Shown: piece by piece, positions 2,018-61,979 of the stretch
How the letters are laid out: each line of letters begins with the position of its first letter
Numbering within the stretch: position 1 is the first letter of the stretch
Assembly (NCBI GenBank): GCA_902768985.1
Contig: CACXNA010000005.1
Coordinates: 106,664-170,663 of the forward strand
Length of the DNA: 64,000 nucleotides
Reading direction: 5' to 3'
From: an uncultured Bacteroidia bacterium
GTDB taxonomy: Bacteria > Bacteroidota > Bacteroidia > Bacteroidales > UBA932
The notes under the pieces: model-generated
What the model was told of the DNA's origin: nothing
The model's database searches: none
Seen by the model: only the letters and a program-made list of their open reading frames with translations
Program-made: the position numbers and the translations under genes

Positions 2018-2023
2018 TTGAAT

Positions 2024-2950
2024 ATGAAATCATTGAATTATAATTTTTTAGCAATTTTAATCTCATTAATTGCTTTAGTTCAGGTTCCGCTCTTTGGGCA
2101 GTCTGCCCGGGAGATGGTGCGCGATGATATTCCGGCTTTCAGCTGCATCGAGCTGGGCGGGGATTTCGCGCTGGACATCCGTTACGGCAAGCAGTACAAG
2201 GTGCAACTCTCCGTGGAGGAGCTCTTTGCCGATTATGTGCTATCCTCTGTGATGGACAGCACGCTGACGGTCACGCTGGACGACCGCCGTGTCCCGGCGG
2301 AGGTGCGCCGGCAGTTCCGCGGCAAGGATGCGCCGGTTTTCCGGGTGAATGTCACGATGCCGGAGAGTTTGCGCTCCGTGAAGCTCGGCGGGCGCTCGAT
2401 CCTGCTTTCCGCCGACGACCTGGTGGTGGATCCGGACGCTTTCGAACTGCGCGTCACGGACAATGCCAAGGTGGCCTCGCTGGCGTTCGGCTCCGGACGG
2501 GTGGCGCTGACGCTGGACAAGAAGGCGGATGTGGATATGAGCGTGACTTGCGATTCGCTGTCGGTCAGCCTGGCCGGAACGGCCGATCTGGACCTGACCC
2601 ATCATACGAAGGTCACCGCCATCGAGGTGGCGGGCAGCAGCACGCTGGCGGTGAAAGGGGAGACCGGGTTGCTGAAGCTCGACTCGCGCGGCTTTTCCAA
2701 GTCGATCCTGAATGGCGAGGCGCCGGTCGTCCGCTACAAGCTGGCGAATTCGACCCAGGTCAATGCGACCTTGCTGGAGGCGGAGCGCGCCTTCGTGGAG
2801 ATGTCCGGTCTGGGGTCCTTGACGCAGGCGGCCACCGAGGATTTGTCCGTCGATCTGAGCGGCGGCGCCACCGTCTATTTCCTGAACGATCCCGCCATCC
2901 ACGTCATCTATCTGAAGAACGCTTCCCTCATCCCTTACGACCGGAAGTAG
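2024..2950 (+). CDS. DUF2807 (GIN-domain) secreted protein
   Basis: 308 residues from an ATG six bases after the ABC-F stop (a TTG at 2018 is also in frame but less likely). An N-terminal hydrophobic stretch ending near FGQS looks like a signal peptide. The body is a repetitive beta-rich series of short strands with patterns such as LGG, VAGSS and LSGGATVYF. This is the DUF2807 putative auto-transporter adhesin head domain found in many Bacteroidota envelope proteins. Function is not known. The GC content drops sharply over the signal peptide, which is common at gene starts here. Confidence 0.75.
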   Translation: MKSLNYNFLAILISLIALVQVPLFGQSAREMVRDDIPAFSCIELGGDFALDIRYGKQYKVQLSVEELFADYVLSSVMDSTLTVTLDDRRVPAEVRRQFRGKDAPVFRVNVTMPESLRSVKLGGRSILLSADDLVVDPDAFELRVTDNAKVASLAFGSGRVALTLDKKADVDMSVTCDSLSVSLAGTADLDLTHHTKVTAIEVAGSSTLAVKGETGLLKLDSRGFSKSILNGEAPVVRYKLANSTQVNATLLEAERAFVEMSGLGSLTQAATEDLSVDLSGGATVYFLNDPAIHVIYLKNASLIPYDRK

Positions 2951-2990
2951 AGACCAAAATTACAGATGTAATCAGGTGAAAATAGCGGTT

Positions 2991-3023
2991 AACAAAAATG
3001 TTATACTCTTTAACAAATTTGTT
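2991..3023. repeat. Paired inverted repeats AACAAAnnTGTT, 21 bp apart
   Basis: AACAAAAATGTT (2991-3002) and AACAAATTTGTT (3012-3023) are two near-palindromes whose starts are exactly 21 bp apart, about two helical turns. They lie in the convergent gap between the DUF2807 gene and pncC, where no promoter is expected. The same arrangement with the same spacing recurs at 17084-17116 before rarA. This looks like a binding site for a dimeric DNA-binding protein; the protein is unknown. Confidence 0.5.
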
Positions 3024-47123: not shown

Positions 47124-48305
47124 ATGTACAATTTCGACGAAGTTATCAACCGGCGCGGCACGCGCTGCATCAAATACGACACGCTTCAGGAGCACTACGG
47201 ACGCACTGATCTTCTCTCTATGTGGGTGGCGGACATGGACTTCCGCACCCCGGATTTCATTCTCGACGCGCTGCGGCGCCGCCTGGACCATCCGGTCCTG
47301 GGCTACCCCTCCACGGGCGAAGATTATTTCGAGATCGTCTCGAAATGGGTCGAGGACCTGCATGGCTGGAAGGTGCCCGCGAAGGACTTCCGCTACGTGC
47401 CGGGCATCGTCAAGGGCTTCGGCTTTGCCGAGCGCTGCTTCCTGCAGCCCGGCGACAAGGTGATCATCCAGAAGCCGGTCTACCATCCTTTCCGCATCGT
47501 GGCGGAGGAGAGCGGCTTCGAGGTGGTGAACAATCCCCTGCGGCCCGTTTATGATGAAGATGGCTTCCTGCTGACCTACGAAATGGATCTGGAGGACCTC
47601 GAGCGCAAGATCGACGAGCGGACGAAGATGCTCATCCTGTGCAACCCCCACAACCCCGGCGGGGTGTGCTTCCCGGCCGAGGTGCTGCGCCGCCTCGCGG
47701 ACCTCTGCGACCGGCATGGCATCATCGTCGTCTCCGACGAGATCCACTGCGAGATGGTGCTCGGCGGCCGCCGGCATGTCCCCTTCGCCTCCGTGAGCGA
47801 GGCGGCCGCGCGCTGCGCCATCACCTTCATGGCCCCGTCCAAGACCTTCAATATCGCGGGCGTGGTGAGCTCGTACGTGATCATCCAGAACCCGGCGCTC
47901 GCCGGGAAATTCTTCAAGTATATCGAGTCCAACGAGACGGACTACCCGCCCATTTTCTCGGCTGAAGCCACCCGCGCCGCCTACACGGAAGCGGGAAAGG
48001 AGTGGCGCGCGGAAATGCTTGACTACGTGCAGGGTAACATCGATTATGTAGACCAATGGTTGCGCACGAATCTCCCGCAGATTCGCGCCGTGCGGCCACA
48101 GGCGTCGTTCCTGGTCTGGCTGGACTGCCGCAAGCTGGGACTTTCCCAGCACGAGCTGGTGGATTTCTTCATCAACAAGGCGCATCTGGCGCTCAACGAC
48201 GGCTCGGTCTTCGGCCCGGAAGGCGTGGGCTTCATGCGCCTGAACGTCGGCTGCCCCCGCTCCCTGCTCCGCGAGGCGCTCGAATCCCTCGCCGCCGCTT
48301 TCTAA
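47124..48305 (+). CDS. MalY/PatB-type aminotransferase (probable C-S lyase)
   Basis: 393 residues, fold-type I PLP enzyme. The start YNFDEVINRRGTRCIKYD and SMWVADMDFRTPDFI are characteristic of the MalY/PatB group, which cleaves cystathionine or cysteine conjugates to a thiol, pyruvate and ammonia. CNPHNPGGVCF, VSDEIHCEMVLGG and the PLP-lysine region MAPSKTFNIAG follow. It could act as cystathionine beta-lyase in methionine synthesis; no partner methionine genes are near. A 12-bp perfect hairpin follows the stop. Confidence 0.88.
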   Translation: MYNFDEVINRRGTRCIKYDTLQEHYGRTDLLSMWVADMDFRTPDFILDALRRRLDHPVLGYPSTGEDYFEIVSKWVEDLHGWKVPAKDFRYVPGIVKGFGFAERCFLQPGDKVIIQKPVYHPFRIVAEESGFEVVNNPLRPVYDEDGFLLTYEMDLEDLERKIDERTKMLILCNPHNPGGVCFPAEVLRRLADLCDRHGIIVVSDEIHCEMVLGGRRHVPFASVSEAAARCAITFMAPSKTFNIAGVVSSYVIIQNPALAGKFFKYIESNETDYPPIFSAEATRAAYTEAGKEWRAEMLDYVQGNIDYVDQWLRTNLPQIRAVRPQASFLVWLDCRKLGLSQHELVDFFINKAHLALNDGSVFGPEGVGFMRLNVGCPRSLLREALESLAAAF

Positions 48306-48326
48306 TTCGTCTCCCGCTTTCTATTT

Positions 48327-48365
48327 GTTACCGGACGCAGGATCCCCTTCCCAGCGTCCGGTAAC
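48327..48365 (+). terminator. Hairpin after the aminotransferase gene
   Basis: A perfect 12-bp stem, GTTACCGGACGC (48327-48338) with GCGTCCGGTAAC (48354-48365), follows 22 bp after the stop codon. No strong T-run follows, so termination is likely but not certain. Confidence 0.6.
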
Positions 48366-48395
48366 TGATTTATGGGCTTTGCGTGTGGACAATCA

Positions 48396-48426
48396 TTTGA
48401 TATTTAAAAAATTTTATTTATCTTTG
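48396..48426 (+). promoter_or_regulatory. Promoter of the arginine operon
   Basis: TTTG (48396-48399), 19 bases, then TATCTTTG (48419-48426): a perfect match to the Bacteroidota -33/-7 consensus. Transcription should start near 48433, one base before the leader-peptide ATG. Confidence 0.7.
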
Positions 48427-48433
48427 CTGCGTT

Positions 48434-48478
48434 ATGTGTTTTGTGTATTACCAAAGCTCCAGACGAGACCGACGATAG
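48434..48478 (+). CDS. Arginine leader peptide (attenuator), 14 codons
   Basis: A short frame encodes MCFVYYQSSRRDRR and then TAG. Four of the last five sense codons are arginine (AGA CGA GAC CGA CGA). AGA and CGA are otherwise rare beside the CGC used in the genes here, which would sharpen stalling. It lies directly after a consensus promoter and 124 bases before the first gene of an arginine operon, the position of classic amino-acid leader peptides. A GGAGG/CCTCC hairpin begins at its stop codon. No Shine-Dalgarno is visible; translation would begin at the mRNA 5' end. Confidence 0.65.
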   Translation: MCFVYYQSSRRDRR

Positions 48479-48602
48479 GAGGCGTAGAACCCTCCCACAT
48501 CCTCGGAAATTCAACATGCAAACCCCCAATATGAATTTTCGCCCAATAATTGCAATTGACAATCTCGGTTTGTCTTGCCATTAGGGGCCCTATTGTATAG
48601 AA
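48479..48602 (+). promoter_or_regulatory. Arginine operon leader RNA with possible alternative hairpins
   Basis: Between the leader peptide and the first gene lie a small hairpin overlapping the leader stop (GGAGG 48478-48482 with CCTCC 48491-48495), a second pair (GAAATTCA 48506-48513 with TGAATTTTC 48532-48540, one bulge), and GACAA (48558-48562) with TTGTC (48570-48574). A classical terminator with a long U-run is not obvious, so attenuation could be Rho-dependent or act on translation. Confidence 0.45.
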
Positions 48603-49163
48603 ATGAACATCAATGTCATGGTGGCTGACGAAAGCCACACTCGATTTGCGGAAGAAATCTGTCAGGAGATCTACATCTCCTCCCTGGAGCGCAAGACCGG
48701 TATCGCCAAGCGTACGCCGGAGTACATCAATGAGAAAATCCGGGCTGGAAAAGCCGTGATCGCCGTCTCCGACGAGGGCGAGTTCGCCGGCTTCTCCTAC
48801 ATTGAGTCCTGGGGCGGCAAGAGCTTTGTCGCCAACTCCGGTCTGATCGTTGCCCACAAGTTCCGTGGCATGGGCATCGCCAAGCGGATCAAGGAGCAGA
48901 CCTTCATCCTGTCCCGGAAGCTCTTCCCCAACGCCAAGATCTTCTCCATCACCACCGGCGCGGCCGTGATGAAGATGAACTACGAGTTCGGCTTCCGCCC
49001 GGTCCCCTACACCGAACTCACGGACGATCCGGAGTTCTGGAAGGGCTGCGAGGGCTGCCGCCATTTCGACATCCTGGAGAGCCATGACTACAAGATGTGC
49101 ATCTGTACGGGCCTGCTCTACGACCCGCAGGAGCACCTGGAAATCCACCATCCGGGCGAATAA
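48603..49163 (+). CDS. GNAT acyltransferase, candidate N-acyl-glutamate synthase
   Basis: 186 residues, single GNAT domain. FAGFSYIESWGGKSFVANSGLIV leads to the acyl-CoA loop HKFRGMGIAKRI (R-x2-G-x-G/A) and later SITTGAAVMKMNYEFGFRPV. The C-terminal part has a cluster of cysteines (GCEGC, MCICT). It is first in an operon that contains the other arginine genes but no ArgA or ArgJ. It is therefore the natural candidate for the first step, acylation of glutamate with acetyl- or succinyl-CoA. The assignment comes from context, not from the domain. Confidence 0.65.
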   Translation: MNINVMVADESHTRFAEEICQEIYISSLERKTGIAKRTPEYINEKIRAGKAVIAVSDEGEFAGFSYIESWGGKSFVANSGLIVAHKFRGMGIAKRIKEQTFILSRKLFPNAKIFSITTGAAVMKMNYEFGFRPVPYTELTDDPEFWKGCEGCRHFDILESHDYKMCICTGLLYDPQEHLEIHHPGE

Positions 49164-49192: not shown

Positions 49193-50407
49193 ATGGAAAA
49201 GAAAAAGAAAGTCGTCGTCGCCTTCAGCGGAGGTCTGGACACCTCCTACACGGTGATGTACCTGGCCAAAGAGAAAGGCTACGAGGTGCACGCCGCCTGC
49301 GCCAACACCGGCGGATTCAGCGCCGAGCAGCTGAAGACCAACGAGGAGAACGCCTACAAGCTGGGCGCCACCAAGTACGTGACCCTCGACGTCACACAGG
49401 AATACTACGCCAAGAGCCTCAAATACATGGTCTACGGTAACGTGCTCCGCAACGGCACCTACCCCATCTCCGTGTCCTCCGAGCGTATCTTCCAGGGCAT
49501 GGCCATCGCCCGCTACGCCAATGAGATCGGCGCGGACGCCATCGCCCACGGCTCCACCGGCGCCGGCAACGACCAGGTCCGCTTCGACATGACCTTCCTG
49601 GTGATGTGCCCGAACATGGAGATCATCACCCTCACCCGCGACGGCAACCTCTCCCGCAAGGAGGAGGTCGATTACCTGAACGCACACGGCTTCAACGCCG
49701 ATTTCACCAAGCTCAAATACTCCTACAACGTGGGTATCTGGGGCACGTCCATCTGCGGCGGCGAGATCCTCGATTCGAAGCAGGGCCTGCCCGAGAGCGC
49801 CTACCTCAAGCAGGTCAGCAAGAGCGGCTCCGAGATCCTGAGCCTCGGCTTCGAGAAAGGTGAGCTGAAGAGTGTGAACGGCAAGGAATACAGCGACAAG
49901 ATCGCCGCCATCCAGGCGGTCGAAGCCATCGGCGCCCCGTACGGCATCGGCCGCGACATGCACGTCGGCGACACCATTATCGGCATCAAGGGCCGCGTGG
50001 GCTTCGAAGCCGCCGCCCCGATGCTGATCATCGGCGCACACAAGTTCCTGGAGAAATTCACCCTCTCCAAGTGGCAGCAGTATTGGAAGGACCAGGTGGC
50101 CAACTGGTACGGCATGTTCCTGCACGAGAGCCAGTACCTCGAGCCCGTGATGCGTGACATCGAGGCCATGCTCGAGAGCAGCCAGCGCAACGTCAACGGC
50201 ACCGTGACCCTCGAGCTGCGCCCCTACGGCTTCTCCACGGTGGGCGTGGATTCCCCCGACGACCTCGTCAAGAGCAAGCTCGGCGAGTACGGCGAGACCC
50301 AGAAGGGTTGGACGGCCGAAGAGGCCAAGGGCTTCATCAAGGTCACGTCCACGCCGCTGCGCGTCTACTACGGCAACCACAAGGACGAATTCAAGGGCGA
50401 TGATTAA
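49193..50407 (+). CDS. argG: Argininosuccinate synthase
   Basis: 404 residues from the ATG at 49193; an in-frame upstream start lies inside the GNAT gene and does not fit. It joins citrulline and aspartate with ATP. The PP-loop is VVAFSGGLDTSYT (residues 8-20). AHGSTGAGNDQVRFD follows near 120, and the tail KVTSTPLRVYYGNHKDEFKGDD is of the variant ArgG seen in Bacteroidota. It overlaps argC by eight bases. Confidence 0.92.
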   Translation: MEKKKKVVVAFSGGLDTSYTVMYLAKEKGYEVHAACANTGGFSAEQLKTNEENAYKLGATKYVTLDVTQEYYAKSLKYMVYGNVLRNGTYPISVSSERIFQGMAIARYANEIGADAIAHGSTGAGNDQVRFDMTFLVMCPNMEIITLTRDGNLSRKEEVDYLNAHGFNADFTKLKYSYNVGIWGTSICGGEILDSKQGLPESAYLKQVSKSGSEILSLGFEKGELKSVNGKEYSDKIAAIQAVEAIGAPYGIGRDMHVGDTIIGIKGRVGFEAAAPMLIIGAHKFLEKFTLSKWQQYWKDQVANWYGMFLHESQYLEPVMRDIEAMLESSQRNVNGTVTLELRPYGFSTVGVDSPDDLVKSKLGEYGETQKGWTAEEAKGFIKVTSTPLRVYYGNHKDEFKGDD

Positions 50408-51344
50408 GGTCGGCATTATCGGCGGCGCCGGCTACACGGCGGGCGAACTCCTCCGCATCCTGGTGAACCACCCGGAGGTGGAGATTGTCTTCGTGCACTC
50501 GACCAGCAACGCCGGCAATCACCTCTACGACGTGCACGGCGGCCTGTTCGGCGACACGGAGCTGACGTTCAGCGACAGCTACGACCTGGAGGCCGTGGAT
50601 GTGCTCTTCCTCTGCTCCGCCCACGGCAAGAGCCGCGAGTTCTGGGAGCAGAACGCCTGCCCGGAGGGCCTCAAAGTCGTGGACCTGGCGCAGGACTACC
50701 GCGACGAGTCCGAGGGCTACGTCTATGGCCTGCCGGAGTGGCAGCGCGACAAGATCCGCACTGCGCGCAAGATCGCCAACCCGGGTTGCTTCGCCACCGC
50801 CATCCAGCTGGCCCTGTTGCCGCTGGCGCATGCCGGCCTGCTGCAGAGCACCGTCCACGTGACGGCCATCACCGGCTCCACGGGCGCGGGCGTCAAGCCC
50901 GCCGCCACCACGCATTTCAGCTGGCGGACGGACAACCTCTCGACCTACAAGGTCTTCGAGCACCAGCACCTCAAGGAGATCTGCCGCAACCTCGGCTTCA
51001 ACGACATCCAGTTCGTCCCCATGCGGGGCGACTTCGCCCGCGGCATCTTCGCCTCCGTCACGGTGGACACGCCGCTGAGCGGCGAAGAAGCGCTCGCGCT
51101 CTATCAGAAATACTACGCCGACGCGGCGTTTACCTTCGTCTCCGACCGTCCGGTGGACCTCAAGCAGGTGGTTAACACCAACAAGGCCATCGTGGCCCCG
51201 GAGGTGCACGACGGCACGCTGGTCGTCTCGTCCGTGATCGACAACCTGCTCAAGGGTGCGTCCGGCCAGGCGGTCCAGAACATGAATTTGATTTTTGGCA
51301 TTCCCGAGACCACGGGCCTCAAGCTGAAGGCATCAGCATTTTAG
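50400..51344 (+). CDS. argC: N-acetyl(succinyl)-gamma-glutamyl-phosphate reductase
   Basis: 314 residues. It reduces the acylglutamyl phosphate to the semialdehyde using NADPH. The Rossmann start IGGAGYTAGELLRIL is at residues 7-21. KIANPGCFATAIQLALLPL near 123 holds the catalytic cysteine in N-P-G-C-F. ITGSTGAGVKPAATTHFSWR follows, and VPMRGDFARGIFASVTV completes the family pattern. Confidence 0.95.
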   Translation: MIKVGIIGGAGYTAGELLRILVNHPEVEIVFVHSTSNAGNHLYDVHGGLFGDTELTFSDSYDLEAVDVLFLCSAHGKSREFWEQNACPEGLKVVDLAQDYRDESEGYVYGLPEWQRDKIRTARKIANPGCFATAIQLALLPLAHAGLLQSTVHVTAITGSTGAGVKPAATTHFSWRTDNLSTYKVFEHQHLKEICRNLGFNDIQFVPMRGDFARGIFASVTVDTPLSGEEALALYQKYYADAAFTFVSDRPVDLKQVVNTNKAIVAPEVHDGTLVVSSVIDNLLKGASGQAVQNMNLIFGIPETTGLKLKASAF

Positions 51345-51350
51345 GATGAT

Positions 51351-52475
51351 ATGGAACTCTTCGACGTATATTCCCTCTTCGACGTCACGCCGGTGAAGGC
51401 GAAAGGCTGCACCGTCTGGGACGACAAGGGGCAGGAGTATCTTGACCTCTACGGCGGCCACGCCGTGATTTCCGTCGGCCACTCCCACCCTCAGTACGTG
51501 GCGGCGCTGACGGAGCAGCTGAACAAGATTGGCTTCTACTCCAACAGCGTGCGCAACCCCCTGCAGGAGGAGCTGGCGCGCCGCATCGGCGAGGTCAGCG
51601 GCTATGAGGACTACACCCTCTTCTTGGACAACAGCGGCGCCGAGTCGAACGAGAACGCCGCCAAGCTGGCGTCCTTCGCTACCGGCAAGGACCGCATCAT
51701 CGCCTTCCGCAAGAGCTTCCACGGCCGCACTTCCGGCGCCGTGGCGCTGACGGACAACCCCGCCATCGTCTCCCCCTTCAACGCGCATCACCGCGTGACC
51801 TTCGTCGACCTGAACGACGGCGACGCCGTGCTGGACGAGCTGAGCAAGGGCGGCGTGGCCGCGGTCATCATCGAGGGCATCCAGGGCTGCGGCGGCATCA
51901 ACCTGCCGACCAACGGTTTCATGCAGGCCCTGCGCCGCATGTGCGACCAGTATGGCGCTGCGCTCATCCTCGACGAGGTGCAGAGCGGCTACGGGCGCAC
52001 GGGCAAGTTCTTCGCCCACCAGTGGGCGGGCATCAAGCCCGACATCATCACCATGGGCAAGGGCATCGCCAACGGCTTCCCCTGCGGCGGCATCCTCATC
52101 TCCCCGCGCTTCCAGGCGCGCAAGGGCATGCTCGGTACCACCTTCGGCGGCAACTACCTCGCCTGCGCGGGCGCGCTTGCCGTGCTCGACATCATCGAGC
52201 AGGAAGGCCTGATGGCGAACGCCCTCGCCGTCGGCGAATATATTAAGGAAGCGCTTCCGAAGAGCGATCGCATCAAGGAAGTGCGCGGCAAGGGCCTGAT
52301 GCTCGGTATCGAGTTCAACGAGCCCGTCGCTCCCCTGCGCCAGAAGCTCCTCTACGACAAGCACATCTTCACCGGCGTGGCCGGTCAGAATATGATCCGG
52401 CTCCTCGCCCCGCTGTGCCTGACCAAGGCCGAGGCGGACCGGTTCCTCACCGCATTCTCAGAAGTCCTCGCATAA
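51351..52475 (+). CDS. argD: N-acetyl(succinyl)ornithine aminotransferase
   Basis: 374 residues, class III PLP aminotransferase. GCTVWDDKGQEYLDLYGGHAV opens the protein. FLDNSGAESNENAAKLA, RSFHGRT-like KSFHGRTSGAVALT, ILDEVQSGYGRTGKFFAHQ and the PLP-lysine block ITMGKGIANGFP (K237) follow. It converts the acylated semialdehyde to acylornithine with glutamate. Its stop shares a base with the next ATG (TAATG). Confidence 0.93.
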   Translation: MELFDVYSLFDVTPVKAKGCTVWDDKGQEYLDLYGGHAVISVGHSHPQYVAALTEQLNKIGFYSNSVRNPLQEELARRIGEVSGYEDYTLFLDNSGAESNENAAKLASFATGKDRIIAFRKSFHGRTSGAVALTDNPAIVSPFNAHHRVTFVDLNDGDAVLDELSKGGVAAVIIEGIQGCGGINLPTNGFMQALRRMCDQYGAALILDEVQSGYGRTGKFFAHQWAGIKPDIITMGKGIANGFPCGGILISPRFQARKGMLGTTFGGNYLACAGALAVLDIIEQEGLMANALAVGEYIKEALPKSDRIKEVRGKGLMLGIEFNEPVAPLRQKLLYDKHIFTGVAGQNMIRLLAPLCLTKAEADRFLTAFSEVLA

Positions 52476-53437
52476 TGAAATCATTCTTTCACGTCAGCGA
52501 TATCGGCGACCTCGGCGCAGCGCTCGAGGAAGCGAAGCAGGTCAAGGCCAATCCCTTCGCCTGGAAGCACCTGGGCGAGAACAAGACCATCATGCTGGTC
52601 TTCTTCAATAGCAGCCTCCGGACGCGCCTGAGCAGCCAGAAGGCGGCGCTCAACCTCGGCATGAGCCCCATCGTGCTCAACATCGGCCAGGACAGCTGGA
52701 AGCTGGAGACCGAGATGGGCGTGGTGATGGACGGCGACAAGTCCGAGCACCTGCGCGAGGCCATCCCCGTGATGACCAGCTACTGCGACATCATCGGCAT
52801 CCGCTCCTTCGCGGGCCTGCAGGACCGGGAATTCGACTACAGCGAGACCGTCCTGAAGCAGTTCGTGGAGTATGGCGGCAAGCCCGTCATCAGCCTCGAA
52901 TCCGCCACGGTGCACCCCTGCCAGGCCTTTGCGGACCTGATCACCATTGAGGAATACCGCAAGAAGAAGCGCCCCAAGGTGGTGCTGACCTGGGCTCCGC
53001 ACCCGCGCGCCCTGCCCCAGGCTGTCCCGAATTCCTTCGCGGAATGGATGAATGCGGCGGACGTGGACTTCGTGATCACGCACCCGCACGGCTACGAGCT
53101 GGATCCCGCTTTCGCGGGTAATGCGCCCGTGGAATACGACCAGATGAAGGCCCTGGAGGGCGCCGACTTCGTCTATGCCAAGAACTGGAGCTGCCCGGGC
53201 GTGACCGATCCCGCCCAGTACGGACAGATCCTGAGCAAGGACATGGGCTGGACGGTGGATGCCCGCCACATGGCCGTGACCAATAACGCTTACTTCATGC
53301 ACTGCCTGCCCGTGCGGCGCAACATGATCGTCTCCGACGAGGTGATCGACGCCCCCACGAGCCTGGTCATCCCGGAAGCGGCCAACCGCGCCGTCTCCGC
53401 GCAGGTGGTGATGAAACGGATGCTGGAAAGCCTATGA
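52475..53437 (+). CDS. argF': N-succinyl/N-acetyl-ornithine transcarbamylase (ArgF' type)
   Basis: 320 residues, strongly like the Bacteroides fragilis succinylornithine transcarbamylase along its length. The carbamoyl-phosphate motif FFNSSLRTR is at 43-51. MDGDKSEHLREAIPVM lies near 85-100, LTWAPHPRALPQAVPNSF near 170, and the C-terminal HCLPVRRNMIVSDEVI near 275. It carbamylates acylornithine, so deacylation happens after this step. Residue 90, a proline in the B. fragilis enzyme and the reported acyl-specificity switch, is serine here. The longer upstream frame lies within argD and is not used. Confidence 0.92.
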   Translation: MKSFFHVSDIGDLGAALEEAKQVKANPFAWKHLGENKTIMLVFFNSSLRTRLSSQKAALNLGMSPIVLNIGQDSWKLETEMGVVMDGDKSEHLREAIPVMTSYCDIIGIRSFAGLQDREFDYSETVLKQFVEYGGKPVISLESATVHPCQAFADLITIEEYRKKKRPKVVLTWAPHPRALPQAVPNSFAEWMNAADVDFVITHPHGYELDPAFAGNAPVEYDQMKALEGADFVYAKNWSCPGVTDPAQYGQILSKDMGWTVDARHMAVTNNAYFMHCLPVRRNMIVSDEVIDAPTSLVIPEAANRAVSAQVVMKRMLESL

Positions 53438-54213
53438 TCAGTCTCTACAAGATCGGTGGCAACGTGGTGGACGACCCGCAGGCGCTTGAGCGCTTCTGCG
53501 CGGAATTCGCGGCCCTGCCGGGCCCGAAGGTCATCGTCCACGGCGGCGGCGTGCGCGCCAGCCAGGTACAGAAAGCCCTCGGGCAGGAGCCCGTCAAGAT
53601 CGAGGGCCGTCGTGTCACGGACGCGGCCACGCTCGAGGTCGTGACGATGGTCTATGCCGGCTGGTGCAACAAGGACATCGTCGCCCGCCTGCAGGCGCAT
53701 GGCTGCAACGCCATCGGCTTGTCCGGCTGCGACGGCAGCGTGGTCACCGCGCGCAAGCGCGCCCCGAAAACCCTCTCCGACGGCGTCACCGTCGTGGATT
53801 TCGGTTTCGTGGGCGACGTCACGGCGGCCTCCGTCAACGTCCCCTTCATCCAGCTGCTCCTGGACGCCGGCCTGGTGCCGGTGTTCAGCGCCATCAACCA
53901 CGACGGCGCCGGCCAGCTGCTCAACACGAACGCCGACACCATGGCGGCGGCAATTTCTGTCGCTTTGGGCGCAAAATTATTTTATTGTTTCGAGAAAAAT
54001 GGCGTACTTTGTGACCGGAATGACGACGACAGCGTCATCCCCTCCCTCGATCCGGCCGGATTCGAGCGCCTCAAGGCGGAAGGACGCGTCGCGGAGGGGA
54101 TGATTCCCAAGCTGGAAAACTCCTTTGCAGCCCTGCGGGAAGGCGCCTGCGGGGTCGTCATCCGGAACGCCGCCAACCTGCTGGTACCGGGCGGCACAGA
54201 ATTGAAGATATGA
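53434..54213 (+). CDS. argB: N-acetyl(succinyl)glutamate kinase
   Basis: 259 residues, amino-acid kinase family. The start ISLYKIGGNVVDDP, the HGGG loop (IVHGGGVRASQVQKALG, about residues 32-48) and GRRVTDAATLEVVTMVYAG are typical. GLSGCDGSVVTARKR, LNTNADTMAAAIS and the late IPKLENSFAALREGACGVVI follow. It phosphorylates the acylglutamate. Four-base overlaps at both ends join it to argF' and argE. An AT-rich patch occurs near 53975-54010. Confidence 0.92.
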   Translation: MISLYKIGGNVVDDPQALERFCAEFAALPGPKVIVHGGGVRASQVQKALGQEPVKIEGRRVTDAATLEVVTMVYAGWCNKDIVARLQAHGCNAIGLSGCDGSVVTARKRAPKTLSDGVTVVDFGFVGDVTAASVNVPFIQLLLDAGLVPVFSAINHDGAGQLLNTNADTMAAAISVALGAKLFYCFEKNGVLCDRNDDDSVIPSLDPAGFERLKAEGRVAEGMIPKLENSFAALREGACGVVIRNAANLLVPGGTELKI

Positions 54214-55301
54214 ATTTGTACGAAGATTCCATCAACCTGCTGCGGCAAATGGTCCGCATCCCTTCCCTCTCCGGGCAGGAGGCGGCGGTGGCCGCCTGCG
54301 TCCGGGAAGCGCTGGCCGGTTTCGGAATCCCGTGCGAAGAAGTCCGAGGCAATCTGCTGGCGCTGAACCGACGTTTCGATCCGTCCAAGCCCACGATTGC
54401 CCTGGATGCCCATCTTGATACGGTTCCTGTCAATCATGGCTACACCCGCGACCCGTACGATTCGGGGAACGATCCCGATATTGTTTATGGACTTGGTTCC
54501 AACGATGATGGCGGAAGTGTAGTGTCTATGATTGCTGCTTTCCGCCATTTTTATGAGCAGGAGCTTCCCATCAACCTGATGCTGATCCTCTCCCGCGAGG
54601 AGGAGGTCAGCGGCCCCGACGGCACGCGCTGGATCTTCGCGCCCGACGGCCTGTTCGCGACGGACAGCCGCTGGCCCCGGCCGCAGTGGGTCATTGTGGG
54701 CGAGCCCACGCAGATGCGCGCCGCGACCAGCGAGCGCGGCCTGCTGGTGCTGGACGGCGAGGCGCAGGGCGTCAGCGGCCACGCGGCGCGCGGCGAGGGT
54801 GTGAACGCCCTCTACATCGCGCTGGACGATATCCAGGCCGTGCGGGAACACCGTTTCACGAAGCATTCCCCGCGCATGGGCGACGTCCGCCTGAGCGTCA
54901 CGCAGATCGAGGCCGGCCAGGCGCACAACGTCATCCCCGACCGCTGCCACTTCGTGGTGGACATCCGCCCCACGGAGCAGTATACCAACGAAGAGATCGT
55001 GGACGAGCTGCAGGCATTCTGCAAGAGCACGCTCAAGGCGCGCAACCTCGCGAACCGCTCCTCGGCCACGCGCGAAGGCTCCCCGCTGCTCCGTACCGCG
55101 GAAGCGCTGGGCATCGAGACCTTCTCCTCGCCGACCACCTCCGACTGGATGCGCATCCCCGTGGACGCCATCAAGATGGGGCCCGGCGACTCCTCCCGCT
55201 CCCACAAGGCGGACGAATTCATCCGCACGTCGGAGATCCGGGAAGGCATTGACAAGTATATAGCATTTATTGAGATGTTCTATGGCAACACTTTGGAATA
55301 A
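54210..55301 (+). CDS. argE: N-acyl-citrulline/ornithine deacylase, M20 peptidase family
   Basis: 363 residues, zinc-dependent M20 family. ALDAHLDTVPVN near residue 60 supplies the first metal ligand, GSNDDGGSVVSMIAAF near 96 the bridging aspartate, and LSREEEVSG near 131 the catalytic glutamate. HAARGEGVNALYIALDDI marks the dimerisation domain. With an ArgF'-type carbamylase upstream, the physiological substrate is probably acylcitrulline. It overlaps argH by twenty bases. Confidence 0.88.
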   Translation: MNLYEDSINLLRQMVRIPSLSGQEAAVAACVREALAGFGIPCEEVRGNLLALNRRFDPSKPTIALDAHLDTVPVNHGYTRDPYDSGNDPDIVYGLGSNDDGGSVVSMIAAFRHFYEQELPINLMLILSREEEVSGPDGTRWIFAPDGLFATDSRWPRPQWVIVGEPTQMRAATSERGLLVLDGEAQGVSGHAARGEGVNALYIALDDIQAVREHRFTKHSPRMGDVRLSVTQIEAGQAHNVIPDRCHFVVDIRPTEQYTNEEIVDELQAFCKSTLKARNLANRSSATREGSPLLRTAEALGIETFSSPTTSDWMRIPVDAIKMGPGDSSRSHKADEFIRTSEIREGIDKYIAFIEMFYGNTLE

Positions 55302-56601
55302 AGGTACTTCTGCGACGGAAGCAGTGGATCGTTTCACGGTCGGCAACGACCGCGTGCTCGACCTGCGCCTGGCGCGCTACGACGTGCAGGGCTCCCGCGC
55401 GCACATCAAGATGCTGGAGAAGATCGGCCTGCTCACCGCGGACGAGCTGCAGGCGCTTGACGCCGCCCTCGCCCGCATCGCGGAGCGCATCGAGGCCGGC
55501 GACTTCGTGCTGGAGCCGGACGTCGAGGACATCCATTCGCAGGTGGAGCTGCTGCTCACCCGCGAACTCGGCGAGATGGGCAAGAAAATCCACTCCGGCC
55601 GCTCCCGCAACGATCAGGTGCTCGTGGACCTGAAGCTCTTCCTGCGCGACGAGCTGAAGGGTGTGCGCGAGGAAGTGCTCGTGCTCTTCCGCACCCTCCA
55701 GGGTCTCAGCGAGCAGTATAAAGAGGTCCTCCTGCCGGGCTATACGCATGCGCAGGTGGCCATGCCCTCCTCCTTCGGCCTCTGGTTCGGCGCCTACGCC
55801 GAAGCGCTCGTGGACGACATGTACGGCCTGGGCGGCACCTACCGGATGGTGAACCGCAACCCGCTCGGCTCCGCCGCCGGGTACGGCAATTCCTTCCCCC
55901 TTGACCGCCAGATGACGACAGACCTGCTGGGCTTCGCCTCGCCGGTCTACAACAGCGTCGCCGCGCAGATGCAGCGCGGCCGCACCGAGCGCGCCGTGGC
56001 CTCCGCCCTGGGCGGCATCGCCCTGACGCTCAACAAATTCGCTGCCGACTGCTGCATGTACATGTGCCCGAATTTCGGCTTCATCCACTTCCCGGACGAG
56101 CTGACCACGGGCTCCAGCATCATGCCGCACAAGAAGAACCCCGACGTGTGGGAGATCCTCCGCGGCAAGTGCAACCGCATCCTCGCCTGCGAGAACGAAA
56201 TCGCCCTGCTCTGCAGCAACATGCCGCACGGCTACCACCGCGACTACCAGCTCCTCAAGGACATCCTCTTCCCCGCCCTGGAGCTGATGCACGAGTGCCT
56301 GCAGATGACGGACTATATGCTGCAGCACATCGAGGTCAACGAGAAGATCCTCGACAACAAGCTCTACGACTACCTCTTCACGGTCGAGGAAGTGAACCGC
56401 CGCACGCTCGCGGGCACGCCCTTCCGCGAGGCCTACAAGCAGGTGGGCATCGAGGTGAACGAGGGCCGCTTCCGCTACAGCGGCGGCGACAAGGCCACGC
56501 TCAAGGCCTCCGACCTGGGGCACACACACCTGGGCAGCCTGGGAAACCTTTGTAATGATAAGATCGCCGCGCTGATGGATGCGGCGTCCAATTGGAAATA
56601 A
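55282..56601 (+). CDS. argH: Argininosuccinate lyase
   Basis: 439 residues from the ATG at 55282. It releases arginine and fumarate. DVEDIHSQVELLLTRELG, KIHSGRSRNDQVLVDLKLF and GYTHAQVAMPSSFGLW are typical, with the signature GSSIMPHKKNPDVWE near 275. The fumarase/aspartase superfamily fold and length fit ArgH. Six bases separate it from carA; both genes begin with the same bases ATGGCAACAC. Confidence 0.95.
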   Translation: MATLWNKGTSATEAVDRFTVGNDRVLDLRLARYDVQGSRAHIKMLEKIGLLTADELQALDAALARIAERIEAGDFVLEPDVEDIHSQVELLLTRELGEMGKKIHSGRSRNDQVLVDLKLFLRDELKGVREEVLVLFRTLQGLSEQYKEVLLPGYTHAQVAMPSSFGLWFGAYAEALVDDMYGLGGTYRMVNRNPLGSAAGYGNSFPLDRQMTTDLLGFASPVYNSVAAQMQRGRTERAVASALGGIALTLNKFAADCCMYMCPNFGFIHFPDELTTGSSIMPHKKNPDVWEILRGKCNRILACENEIALLCSNMPHGYHRDYQLLKDILFPALELMHECLQMTDYMLQHIEVNEKILDNKLYDYLFTVEEVNRRTLAGTPFREAYKQVGIEVNEGRFRYSGGDKATLKASDLGHTHLGSLGNLCNDKIAALMDAASNWK

Positions 56602-56607
56602 AGAACT

Positions 56608-57684
56608 ATGGCAACACGCAAAAAAGCGACACTCGTCCTGCAGAACGGACGGAAAATGGAAGGCTGGAGCTTCGGCTACGACGGCCCCTGCAATGGAGAA
56701 GTGGTCTTCTCCACGGCGATGGTGGGCTATCCCGAGAGCCTCACGGACCCCTCCTATTCCGGCCAGATCCTCTGCGTCACCTACCCCCTCATCGGAAACT
56801 ACGGCATCCCGCCCATGGAAGTGGACGCCGACGGCATTTGCAAGACCTTCGAGTCTGAGAAGATCCATGTCCGCGGCCTGATCATCTCCAACTACAGCGA
56901 GGAATACAGCCACTGGGACGCCGTCAAGAGCCTCGGCGAATGGCTGCAGGAGCAGAAGATTCCCGGCATCTGCGGCATTGACACGCGTGCCCTTACGCAG
57001 ATGATCCGCGAAGAGGGTGCCATGCTCGGCCAGATCGTGCCGGAAGGCGCGGAGACGATTGGGAAGATCCCCGACCCCAACCTGGAGAACCAGGTGGCCA
57101 TCGTCAGCTGCAAGGACGTGATCCGCTACGGTAAGGGAGATAAGAAGGTGGTCCTGGTGGACTGCGGTGTCAAGCACCAGATCCTGCGCTGCCTGGTGCA
57201 GCGCGGCGTCGAGCTGATCCGCGTGCCCTGGGATTACGACTTCAACCAGCTGGAGTGGGACGGCCTGTTCATCTCGAACGGCCCGGGCAACCCGGCGCTC
57301 TGCGGCGTCACGGTGGAGCACATCCGCAAGGCCCTGGAGGGCGACAAGCCCGTCTGCGGCATCTGCATGGGCAACCAACTGCTCAGTATCGCCGCCGGCG
57401 CTTCCACCTATAAATTGAAATACGGTCACCGCTCCCACAACCAGCCGGTGCGCCAGGCGGGCACGAACAAGTGCTTCATCACCTCGCAGAACCACGGTTT
57501 CGCGGTGGACGACAGCCGCCTGCCGGAAGGCTGGGAGCCGTACTTCATCAACATGAACGACGGCACCAACGAGGGCATCCGCCACACCTCCAAGCCCTTC
57601 TTCTCCGCCCAGTTCCACCCGGAGGCCTCCAGCGGCCCGGTGGACACGGAATTCTTCTTTGACGACTTTATCTCCAGATTATGA
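56608..57684 (+). CDS. carA: Carbamoyl-phosphate synthase small subunit
   Basis: 358 residues. The N-terminal domain has VVFSTAMVGYPESLTDPSYSGQIL and GICGIDTRALTQMIREEG. The class I glutaminase domain has FISNGPGNPALC, the nucleophile in GICMGNQLLS (cysteine about 254), NHGFAVD and the His/Glu pair in AQFHPEASSGP. It supplies ammonia to CarB. Carbamoyl phosphate made here feeds ArgF' in the same operon and also pyrimidine synthesis. Confidence 0.96.
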   Translation: MATRKKATLVLQNGRKMEGWSFGYDGPCNGEVVFSTAMVGYPESLTDPSYSGQILCVTYPLIGNYGIPPMEVDADGICKTFESEKIHVRGLIISNYSEEYSHWDAVKSLGEWLQEQKIPGICGIDTRALTQMIREEGAMLGQIVPEGAETIGKIPDPNLENQVAIVSCKDVIRYGKGDKKVVLVDCGVKHQILRCLVQRGVELIRVPWDYDFNQLEWDGLFISNGPGNPALCGVTVEHIRKALEGDKPVCGICMGNQLLSIAAGASTYKLKYGHRSHNQPVRQAGTNKCFITSQNHGFAVDDSRLPEGWEPYFINMNDGTNEGIRHTSKPFFSAQFHPEASSGPVDTEFFFDDFISRL

Positions 57685-60600
57685 TCGACTCCAACATAAA
57701 GAAAGTTCTGGTGCTCGGCTCGGGCGCCCTCAAGATCGGCGAGGCCGGCGAATTCGACTACAGCGGCTCGCAGGCCCTCAAGGCCCTCCGCGAGGAGGGC
57801 ATCAAGACGGTCCTCATCAACCCCAACATCGCCACGGTGCAGACCTCCGAAGGCGTCGCCGACAAGGTGTACTTCCTGCCCGTGACCCCCTTCTTCGTGG
57901 AGAAGGTCATCAAGAAAGAGAAGCCGCAGGGCATCCTGCTTTCGTTCGGCGGCCAGACCGCACTCAACTGCGGTGTGGAGCTCTACAAGAGCGGCATCCT
58001 CGAGGCGAATAACGTGCAGGTGCTCGGCACCCCGGTCCAGTCCATCATCGACACCGAGGACCGCGAGCTCTTCGTGGAGCGCCTGGACGAGATCGGCGTG
58101 AAGACGATCAAGTCCCACGCCGCGGCCAATTTGGAAGAGGCCCGCGCCGCCGCGCGCGAGGTCGGCTATCCGGTCATCATCCGCGCCGCCTACGCGCTGG
58201 GCGGCCTGGGCTCCGGCTTCTGCGAGAACGAGGCGGAGCTGGACACGGTGGCCCGCAAGGCCTTCTCCTTCTCCCCGCAGGTGCTCGTCGAGAAGTCCCT
58301 GCGCGGCTGGAAAGAGATTGAGTACGAGGTCGTCCGCGACCGCTACGACAACTGCATCACGGTCTGTAACATGGAGAACTTCGACCCGCTCGGCATCCAC
58401 ACCGGCGAGAGCATCGTGGTGGCTCCTTCGCAGACCCTGACCAACGACGAATACCATTACCTGCGCAAGATCGCCATCGACATCGTCCGCCACGTCGGCA
58501 TCGTCGGCGAGTGCAACGTGCAGTATGCCTTCAGCCCGGACGGCGAGGACTACCGCGTCATCGAGGTGAACGCCCGTCTGAGCCGCTCCTCCGCCCTGGC
58601 CTCCAAGGCCACGGGCTATCCCCTCGCCTTCATCGCCGCCAAGCTCGGCCTCGGCTACGGCCTCTATGAGCTGAAGAACTCCGTGACCAAGACCACCCCG
58701 GCCTTTTTCGAGCCGGCGCTGGACTACGTGGTCTGTAAGATCCCCCGTTGGGACCTCGCCAAGTTCAAGGGCGTGTCCCGCGAGATCGGCTCCAGCATGA
58801 AGAGCGTCGGCGAAGTGATGGCCATCGGCCGCAGCTTCGAAGAGGCCATCCAGAAGGGCCTGCGCATGATCGGACAGGGCGCCAACGGCTTTGTCTGCAA
58901 CAAGCCGTTCAACGGTGACAACCTGGACGAGGCGCTCAAGACGCCGACCGACACGCGCATCTTCGCCATCGCCGCCGCCTTCGAGGCCGGCTACAGCGTG
59001 GACCGCATCCACGAGCTGACCAAGATTGACCGCTGGTTCCTCTGCAAGCTGGCCGGCATCGCGAAGACCTACCACGAGCTCGGCGCCTGCACGAAGCTGA
59101 CCGACATCAGCTTTGACCTCCTGAAGAAGGCCAAGTGCCAGGGCTTCTCGGATGTCCAGATTTCCCGCCTGACGGGTGCTCCCGAGGCCAAGGTGCGCGA
59201 GCTGCGCGCCTTCCTGGGCCTGCGCCCGCACGTCAAGCAGATCGACACCCTGGCCGCGGAATTCCCTTCTTCTACCAATTACCTTTATCTGACTTATAAC
59301 GGTGAGACGGACGACGTCGACTTTGAAGACGGCTCCAACACCGTCATCGTCCTCGGTTCCGGCGCCTACCGCATCGGCAGCTCCGTGGAGTTCGACTGGT
59401 GCGGCGTGAATGCCCTGAATACCCTGCGCAGCAGCGGCTACAAGGCCATCATGATCAACTACAACCCCGAGACCGTCTCCACCGACTACGACGTCTGCGA
59501 CCGGCTCTATTTCGACGAGCTGAGCTTCGAGACGGTGATGGAGATCTGCGCGATGGAGAAGCCTTACGGCGTGATCGTGAGCGTGGGCGGCCAGATTCCG
59601 AACAACCTGGCCGTGCCTCTGATGCGCGCCGGCGTCCACATCCTCGGCACGACTGCCCACGACATCGACCGCGCGGAGGACCGCAACAAGTTCTCCCAGA
59701 TCGTGGACAAACTGGGCATCGACCAGCCGCGCTGGAGCGAGCTGACCACGATGGCCGACGTGGACAAATTTGTCGACGAAGTCGGCTTCCCAGTGCTCGT
59801 GCGTCCTTCGTACGTGCTCTCCGGCGCCGCCATGAACGTCTGCTACAGCAAGGAGGACCTCCGCATCTTCCTCGACATGGCCGTCGAGGTCTCCGAGGAG
59901 CATCCGGTGGTCATCAGTTCCTTCATGCAGCGCTGCAAGGAGCTGGAATGCGACGCCGTGGCCGATGGCGGCAAGGTGATCGCCTACGCGATCTCCGAGC
60001 ACATCGAGTTCGCGGGCGTGCACTCCGGCGACGCCACCATCCAGTTCCCGCCGCAGAAGATCTACGGCATCACGGCCGCCAAGATCCGCAAGACCGCGGC
60101 CGCCATCGCCGCCGAGCTGCATATCACCGGCCCGTTCAACATCCAGTTCCTCGCCACCGACAACTACATCAAGGTGATCGAGTGCAACCTGCGCGCCTCC
60201 CGCAGCTTCCCCTTCGTATCCAAGGTCTTGAAGGTCAACTTCATCGACCTGGCCACGCGCTGTATGCTCGGCCAGCGGCCGGAGAAGATCGACATCGATC
60301 CCTTCGAGCTCGACTACGTGGGCATCAAGTGCTCCCAGTTCTCCTTCGCCCGCCTGGGCAAGGCGGACCCGGTGCTGGGCGTGGACATGGCCTCCACCGG
60401 CGAGGTGGGCTGCATCGGCGACAACCTCAATGAGGCGCTGCTCAAGTCCATGCTTTCCGTGGGCCACCGCATCCCGCAGAAGTCCATCCTCATCTCTTCG
60501 GGCAACCCGATCCAGAAGGCGGACCTGCTGCGCGCCTGCCAGCTCCTCGCGGAGAAGAACTATACGATCTACGCCACGGGCGGTACGGCCAAGTACCTGA

Positions 60601-60884
60601 ATGAGAACGGCGTACCGGCCATCCAGGCCCTCTGGCCGAACGAAGAGAAGTTCGGCGCTCCGGCTGCCCTGGACCTGATCCGCAAACATGAAGTTGAACT
60701 TGTGATCAACATCCCTAAGAACTTCACGCACAGCGAGCTCAGCAACGGATACCAGATGCGTCGCGCGGCCATCGACTTCAACGTGCCGCTCATCACCAAC
60801 AGCCGCCTCGCCACGGCCTACATCCGCGCCTTCTGCGCGGTTCCGCTGGACGAGATCAGCATCAAGAGCTGGGATGAGTACTAG
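57681..60884 (+). CDS. carB: Carbamoyl-phosphate synthase large subunit
   Basis: 1067 residues with the duplicated ATP-grasp layout: carboxyphosphate half (about 1-400), oligomerisation part (400-545), carbamoyl-phosphate half (545-930) and a C-terminal MGS-like allosteric domain (ATGGTAKYLNENGVPA near 972). Halves start VLGSGALKIGEAGEFDYSGSQ and VLGSGAYRIGSSVEFDWCGVN. The allosteric domain is present, so UMP/ornithine-type control is possible. Overlaps carA by four bases and the EamA gene by eleven. Confidence 0.97.
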   Translation: MIDSNIKKVLVLGSGALKIGEAGEFDYSGSQALKALREEGIKTVLINPNIATVQTSEGVADKVYFLPVTPFFVEKVIKKEKPQGILLSFGGQTALNCGVELYKSGILEANNVQVLGTPVQSIIDTEDRELFVERLDEIGVKTIKSHAAANLEEARAAAREVGYPVIIRAAYALGGLGSGFCENEAELDTVARKAFSFSPQVLVEKSLRGWKEIEYEVVRDRYDNCITVCNMENFDPLGIHTGESIVVAPSQTLTNDEYHYLRKIAIDIVRHVGIVGECNVQYAFSPDGEDYRVIEVNARLSRSSALASKATGYPLAFIAAKLGLGYGLYELKNSVTKTTPAFFEPALDYVVCKIPRWDLAKFKGVSREIGSSMKSVGEVMAIGRSFEEAIQKGLRMIGQGANGFVCNKPFNGDNLDEALKTPTDTRIFAIAAAFEAGYSVDRIHELTKIDRWFLCKLAGIAKTYHELGACTKLTDISFDLLKKAKCQGFSDVQISRLTGAPEAKVRELRAFLGLRPHVKQIDTLAAEFPSSTNYLYLTYNGETDDVDFEDGSNTVIVLGSGAYRIGSSVEFDWCGVNALNTLRSSGYKAIMINYNPETVSTDYDVCDRLYFDELSFETVMEICAMEKPYGVIVSVGGQIPNNLAVPLMRAGVHILGTTAHDIDRAEDRNKFSQIVDKLGIDQPRWSELTTMADVDKFVDEVGFPVLVRPSYVLSGAAMNVCYSKEDLRIFLDMAVEVSEEHPVVISSFMQRCKELECDAVADGGKVIAYAISEHIEFAGVHSGDATIQFPPQKIYGITAAKIRKTAAAIAAELHITGPFNIQFLATDNYIKVIECNLRASRSFPFVSKVLKVNFIDLATRCMLGQRPEKIDIDPFELDYVGIKCSQFSFARLGKADPVLGVDMASTGEVGCIGDNLNEALLKSMLSVGHRIPQKSILISSGNPIQKADLLRACQLLAEKNYTIYATGGTAKYLNENGVPAIQALWPNEEKFGAPAALDLIRKHEVELVINIPKNFTHSELSNGYQMRRAAIDFNVPLITNSRLATAYIRAFCAVPLDEISIKSWDEY

Positions 60885-61906: not shown

Positions 61907-61979
61907 GGTGCTGTAGCTCAGATGGTAGAGCAAAGGACTGAAAATCCTTGTGTCGGCAGTTCGATTCTTCCCAGCACCA
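61907..61979 (+). tRNA. tRNA-Phe (anticodon GAA)
   Basis: A 73-base cloverleaf. The acceptor stem is GGTGCTG (61907-61913) with CAGCACC (61972-61978), the D stem GCTC/GAGC, the anticodon stem AAGGA/TCCTT around loop CTGAAAA with GAA anticodon, and the T arm GGCAG-TTCGATT-CTTCC. The T stem has one C-U mismatch at its middle pair. CCA is not encoded (A then CGG). A terminator follows directly. Confidence 0.92.

Follow-up and report, generated by a model that had tools for sequence, protein, structure and literature searches.

Some uncultured gut bacteria appear to run their arginine genes by a tiny translated frame and RNA hairpins instead of ArgR

A group of uncultured gut bacteria appears, from comparison of related genomes, to control arginine genes by means of a tiny translated frame and RNA hairpins instead of ArgR. 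The conserved element that contains this leader spans 48396–48602 of the window, the whole 64,000-nucleotide stretch of DNA analysed here, and precedes an arginine and carAB operon (Table 1). Compared across relatives, the leader bears the marks of translation, its CGA codon and arginine content those of selection, and the RNA structures are conserved; by the same comparison, the element and ArgR seldom coexist. We lean, with moderate confidence, towards a cis-acting attenuator, translation-dependent and responsive to arginine, that would take the place of ArgR.

Table 1. Features of the element and of the operon behind it, in window positions.
Feature	Position	Strand	Details	Evidence
Promoter	48396..48426	+	TTTG 48396–48399, 19 nt, TATCTTTG 48419–48426	equivalent -7-like box in relatives
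Leader ORF	48434..48478	+	MCFVYYQSSRRDRR; ATG 48434–48436 to TAG 48476–48478	conservation among relatives
Conserved CGA codon	48470..48472	+	codon 13, the penultimate sense codon; candidate sensor	43 of 45 distinct peptides
P1	48469..48506	+	CCGACGAT 48469–48476 with ATCCTCGG 48499–48506; encloses hairpin A and uses the last leader codons	swap test
Hairpin A	48478..48495	+	GGAGG 48478–48482 with CCTCC 48491–48495, over the stop	conserved in relatives
P3	48541..48588	+	extended hairpin; lower stem GCCC 48541–48544 with GGGC 48585–48588	alignment, permutation test
GNAT-like gene	48603..49163	+	first structural gene	weak domain match
argG, argC, argD, carbamoyltransferase, argB, argE-like, argH, carA, carB	49193..60884	+		NCBIfam

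The leader ORF has 14 codons, and its 3' end reads AGA CGA GAC CGA CGA TAG. It was re-found in the window sequence, with the position, reading and terminal codons given in an earlier note on this DNA. Among the 630 ATG-started frames of 8–35 codons in the window, both strands counted, only two have at least four arginines in their last six codons, one of them the leader ORF. The setting described by that note, a promoter followed by an arginine operon, is also present, with TTTG, 19 nt and TAnnTTTG upstream and arg and carAB genes downstream. The TAnnTTTG box is the single plus-strand occurrence in 48300–48700, and the leader ATG begins 7 nt past it. To judge by the spacing between box and ATG, the 5' UTR of the leader would be very short; the transcript may begin, as the earlier note proposed, one base ahead of the ATG. 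Between the promoter and the preceding aminotransferase gene lies a perfect 12-bp inverted repeat, GTTACCGGACGC (48323–48369), perhaps the terminator of that gene.

In summary naming, the gene order behind the element is a GNAT-like gene, argG-C-D-F-B-E-H and carAB. The name of the first gene is weak, as its Pfam match, at 20.5 bits, falls short of the cut-off of 27. Curated NCBIfam cut-offs are passed by argC, the carbamoyltransferase, argB, argH, carA and carB, and the argG, argD and argE-like proteins score under theirs. A tRNA-Phe (GAA) gene is located directly past the operon region, at 61907–61979.

With the GNAT-like protein as a query, we collected 80 loci in named genomes and 58 carriers in a 101-genome sample of the genus, two sets that overlap. 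The upstream regions of the GNAT-like loci were read and the conserved element recognised, and a pattern search for its P3 hairpin yielded 60 distinct copies, the window included. The leader frame together with the GGAGG stop hairpin is found in 53 of the 60, so relatives do carry the Arg-rich short frame that the earlier note had predicted at this position. The seven exceptions are five copies with P3 and no leader (L032, L046, L041, L064 and L076), one at a contig end (L103) and one with the leader and no stop hairpin (L139). In the genus sample, the P3 motif was found in 23 of 101 genomes, once per genome and always directly upstream of the GNAT-like gene; a second copy is absent from the window's genome. 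All 56 copies that have an argG match have it downstream on the same strand. The argG adjoining the element in L102–L141 exists in two versions, with 86–100% versus 52–57% identity to that of the window, and P3 is nearly unchanged. In L002, a long unrelated frame (1516–3000), by eye a 5'-nucleotidase-type phosphoesterase, separates the element from the GNAT-like gene.

P3 was not accepted beyond the family. A P3 model matched seven of 393 genomes of the order, three of them from the genus and four others at 23–31 bits; the core hairpin pattern is absent from all four non-genus matches (L149–L151 by pattern only), and the best of them, L148, sits among unrelated frames. Two matches with three mismatches in genus g20 were also rejected: L142 falls within a long coding stretch, and L143, a similar match, was set aside with it.

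The spacing of the leader argues for its translation. The 53 copies were scanned in all frames for an ATG 5–10 nt past the -7-like box, and in 51 of them a box-proximal ATG (6–10 nt) is in frame with the conserved CGA; this gap is consistent with a leaderless start. The ATG-to-CGA distances are 27, 33, 36, 39, 42, 69, 78 and 84 nt, eight lengths that are all multiples of three; by contrast, the leader stop and P3 are separated by any number of bases. L122 and L128 have an additional out-of-frame alternative ATG, and L104 and L138 are without a box-proximal ATG.

The 45 distinct leader peptides contain 155 arginines among 735 residues after the start (21%), 90 of them encoded by CGA; three of the 45 peptides have a single arginine. 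The penultimate sense codon is CGA in 43 of the 45, the exceptions being L033 and L050. Since the relatives are not independent, these peptide counts carry no probability. Codon -5 of the 20 window-type peptides is AGA in ten, CGA in four, AGG in three and CGT, AAA and AAG in one each, that is, arginine in 18 through four codons and lysine in two, and never CGC or CGG. In the last codon of the 25 distinct non-window-type peptides, the second base is T in 22 and the third base is C in seven, T in seven, A in six and G in five. Both patterns speak for selection on the peptide. Codon 7 is ATA (Ile) in 23 of these 25 peptides at any leader length (L107–L111, L102, L108, L133 and others). Of the frame as first described, the translated Arg-rich leader is thus retained in relatives; the RR.RR run is limited to the close group, and the genus-wide constant is the CGA by the stop. 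A Pfam search, in which the orf34/SpeFL domain DUF2618 was sought, gave no matches for five of the 45 distinct peptides, and the peptide of the window is too short for such a search.

The arginine codons of the leader are, as had been noticed, avoided in a host that prefers CGC. The 50 predicted genes of the window contain 1,018 arginine codons, including 712 CGC, 18 CGA (1.8%) and 14 AGA (1.4%), AGA being slightly rarer than CGA. In the operons of five groups, the CGA share of arginine codons is 0.7% (in the window type, where AGA is equally rare), 0% (92 codons), 0.7%, 0.7% and 7.1%; one of the 0.7% groups favours AGG, and in the 7.1% group CGG is rarer than CGA. CGC and CGG together make up 84% of arginine codons in window-type operons. 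The 43 tRNA matches in the window's genome include the arginine anticodons ACG, CCG, UCU and CCU and none with UCG. A tRNA with inosine in its anticodon (ACG) reads CGA, slowly, and by analogy the host probably decodes CGA solely through this tRNA.

The earlier reading of the element, supported as to the leader, was incomplete, for the structures reach ~48588 and comprise three further RNA pairings. In hairpin A, the first G of GGAGG is the last base of the leader stop codon. P1, the second pairing, joins CCGA of the leader and the bases that follow it to a segment past hairpin A. In an arm-swap test on 15 chosen copies, which omitted the short, L104 and L133 groups, the true P1 pairing was better in 1000 of 1000 shuffles, and with nine less redundant copies in 997 of 1000 (three shuffles reached the true energy). 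The gain comes mostly from the window type and its nearest relatives, and seven of the 15 copies are no better than most swaps.

P3 has a near-invariant bulged core (48552–48578), GCAA-UU-GACAA-(UCUCGGU)-UUGUC-UUGC, with the loop UCNMGGU across copies and one compensatory change (GUAA/UUAC in L050). The distance from P3 to the ATG of the first gene is 24 nt in the window and up to ~110 nt in others. The lower stem is weakly supported because its observed energy was reached by 51 of 500 permutations when all 18 groups were included, and by 16 of 500 without the two P3-only groups. At gathering score, Rfam 15 matched only tRNA in the window and nothing in 14 element loci. No terminator-like site was found in 48300–48700, by a scan that is blind to hairpins which, like P3, contain a bulge and have a U-rich stretch behind them. 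Two other explanations of P3 were rejected. With its 7 nt, the loop looks like that of tRNA-Arg(CCG), yet as an anticodon mimic it varies between C and A where arginine needs C; and a second ORF containing P3 has, by eye, no frame with a start that is open in all groups.

We infer the mechanism of the favoured attenuator, from ribosome stalling in response to arginine to the sense of the control and its output, as follows. Transcription would start at the TAnnTTTG promoter, a few bases ahead of the leader ATG, and a ribosome reading the short leader would have to cross the CGA by the stop. When charged tRNA-Arg is scarce, the ribosome would halt at this CGA, with its footprint over P1 and hairpin A. 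With charged tRNA-Arg in good supply, it would finish at UAG and leave, so that P1 and hairpin A, and in the group of the window also a pairing of leader with P3, could form. Whether P3 and the first gene's start take the ON form would then depend on where the ribosome stands, with translation start, Rho and RNA decay as candidate output steps.

Computed folding of 52 copies gave a mean P3 probability of 0.63 in the free versus 0.69 in the stalled state, and an accessibility of the first-gene start of 0.52 versus 0.55. In 21 of 21 window-type copies, masking of the stalled-ribosome footprint lifts the P3 probability from 0.01–0.98 to 0.83–0.98, and in other copies it falls. Were P3 the ON form, this rise would go in the direction that the model calls for; masking of any 5' segment may free P3, i.e. 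the effect may be non-specific. Folding revealed no consistent switch across the copies, and leader-to-P3 pairing across groups is not significant (p 0.18). Anti-P3 pairing, downstream or upstream, was dismissed as a general switch, being confined to some lineages.

No match to ArgR (PF01316) was found in the window's genome (G000, 95% complete), which extends to the whole assembly the earlier remark that no argR-like gene is visible. Incomplete genomes can hide ArgR, and all absence counts given here are subject to this. Among the 101 genomes of the genus sample, 23 have P3, 38 have ArgR and none has both; for the 48 genomes at least 90% complete, the numbers are 12 with P3 and 21 with ArgR. 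The 58 GNAT carriers divide into 23 with P3, 32 with ArgR, none with both and three with neither (G002, G027 and G098). Among the 40 genomes behind the named loci, 30 have P3, two of which (L021 and L023) also have ArgR; in L020, L021 and L023, argC directly follows the GNAT-like gene and no argG is found within the stretch examined. ArgR is present in two of ten control GNAT carriers without P3 and absent from the other eight, so ArgR can be lost where there is no element. Family-wide, 11 of 199 genomes have the element and 13 have ArgR, with no overlap, a result that adds little because less than one overlap is expected by chance. The leader type is clustered, yet not one clade: 14 changes are needed on a tree built from 105 GNAT-like proteins, versus a shuffled mean of 35.3. 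In L016, the promoter is kept and the element is entirely gone, and this genome is also without ArgR. The arg genes of the ArgR-type loci L044 and L060 are split into two runs of opposite direction, argG, argE and argH in one and argC, argD and argF with the GNAT-like gene in the other; argR is nearby.

Several observations bear on other readings of the element. In one of them, a main rival though we think it unlikely, P3 itself does the regulating: a metabolite or an RNA-binding protein would bind this small RNA motif and so set translation or termination of the first gene, the leader being a later refinement. P3 is the most constant part of the element: 22 of 49 columns are invariant in 24 of 43 distinct aligned windows, with the neighbouring argG at 52–57% identity, although this invariance is partly by construction, the copies having been found by the P3 pattern (with up to three mismatches allowed in one search). 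L032 and L046 have P3 and no leader, and in L041, L064 and L076 P3 sits at what would be the 5' end of the mRNA. Downstream complements of its 3' half stand out in L032, L041, L046, L064, L076, L024, L058 and the L102 group (p 0.003–0.073 each; Fisher 0.04 over nine groups), but are missing in most groups, including that of the window. A regulator made of P3 also leaves the kept frame and its arginine and CGA content unexplained.

That content could instead belong to a nascent-chain arrest peptide, on which a ribosome sensing free arginine or Arg-tRNA would halt before the stop; we hold this to be improbable. It would account for the hydrophobic-V-R-hydrophobic-stop C end and the ATA at codon 7 in 23 of the 25 distinct non-window-type peptides, ATA not being rare in most of these operons, and short forms such as MIKIGNIFVRL resemble IFVI, the arrest motif of ErmCL; TnaC and the fungal arginine attenuator peptide would be further parallels. 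However, neither motif occurs in the window's type, and the steady choice of the least used arginine codon points to decoding speed over peptide chemistry. Very improbable, in our judgement, is a frame that is not translated and stays open by chance within an RNA structural element. CCGA and UAGGAGG are conserved as nucleotides, and L050 retains UAG behind an earlier UAA stop; such a reading would nevertheless have to explain eight distinct lengths all in frame, synonymous exchange of arginine codons and degenerate third bases.

The leaders of the trp and his attenuators code for the amino acid of their operon and lie within overlapping alternative RNA pairings. The attenuator proposed here is like them in both respects, and unlike them in that its constant is a single CGA next to the stop instead of a run, its start is near-leaderless and its host belongs to a different phylum; as the scan for a terminator found none, we do not claim it as a member of this class. 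The Bacteroid-trp motif is a cis-regulatory RNA candidate ahead of trp genes in Bacteroidetes. The motif (RF01692) is listed in PMC2864571. The element resembles it in its place ahead of an amino-acid operon, but serves arg and not trp genes, and its sequences match neither RF01692 nor any other Rfam family at gathering score. ArgR with ARG boxes regulates the same genes in sister lineages, and argR adjoins the split arg cluster in L044-type loci; ArgR is a DNA-binding protein, unlike the element, and is absent from 23 of 23 element genomes of the genus sample.

The earlier note had left arginine out of the known leader attenuators. A precedent exists in Salmonella orf34-speF, where consecutive arginine codons in a leader control a polyamine gene (PMC6386406). 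It is the closest functional precedent, with a short Arg-codon leader near the 5' end, a hairpin past the stop, no intrinsic terminator found, and expression that rises at low arginine, the direction proposed for the window element. There are differences: orf34 has 34 codons and an ordinary 31-nt 5' UTR, serves ornithine decarboxylase and not arginine synthesis, and has no P3 (PMC6386406). In orf34, it made no difference whether the arginine codons were rare or frequent, and the one beside the stop was dispensable (PMC6386406), which by analogy weakens the reading of the CGA by the stop. Leaderless starts are unusual in the order, as ~3.7% of the 5' UTRs of Bacteroides thetaiotaomicron are shorter than 10 nt (PMC7366714); the same paper calls short ORFs in long 5' UTRs of Bacteroidota reminiscent of leader peptides, validation pending. 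A literature search, mostly of papers outside subscription journals, turned up no arginine leader peptide described for Bacteroidota; PMC8040213 contains none of five terms sought in it, and PMC9026213 has no mention of ArgR or attenuation.

If our favoured reading is true, an arginine-synthesis operon would be under a leader peptide instead of ArgR. More speculatively, and rather doubtfully, P3 could be a compact RNA motif of a new kind that responds to arginine (or is bound by a protein) and works with or without the near-leaderless peptide, and a combined peptide–RNA sensor could have replaced ArgR for the whole arginine-carAB operon. P3 is a small, testable RNA motif without an Rfam match, and the ArgR-bearing and element-bearing species within one genus would offer a natural comparison of an exchange from repressor to RNA control.
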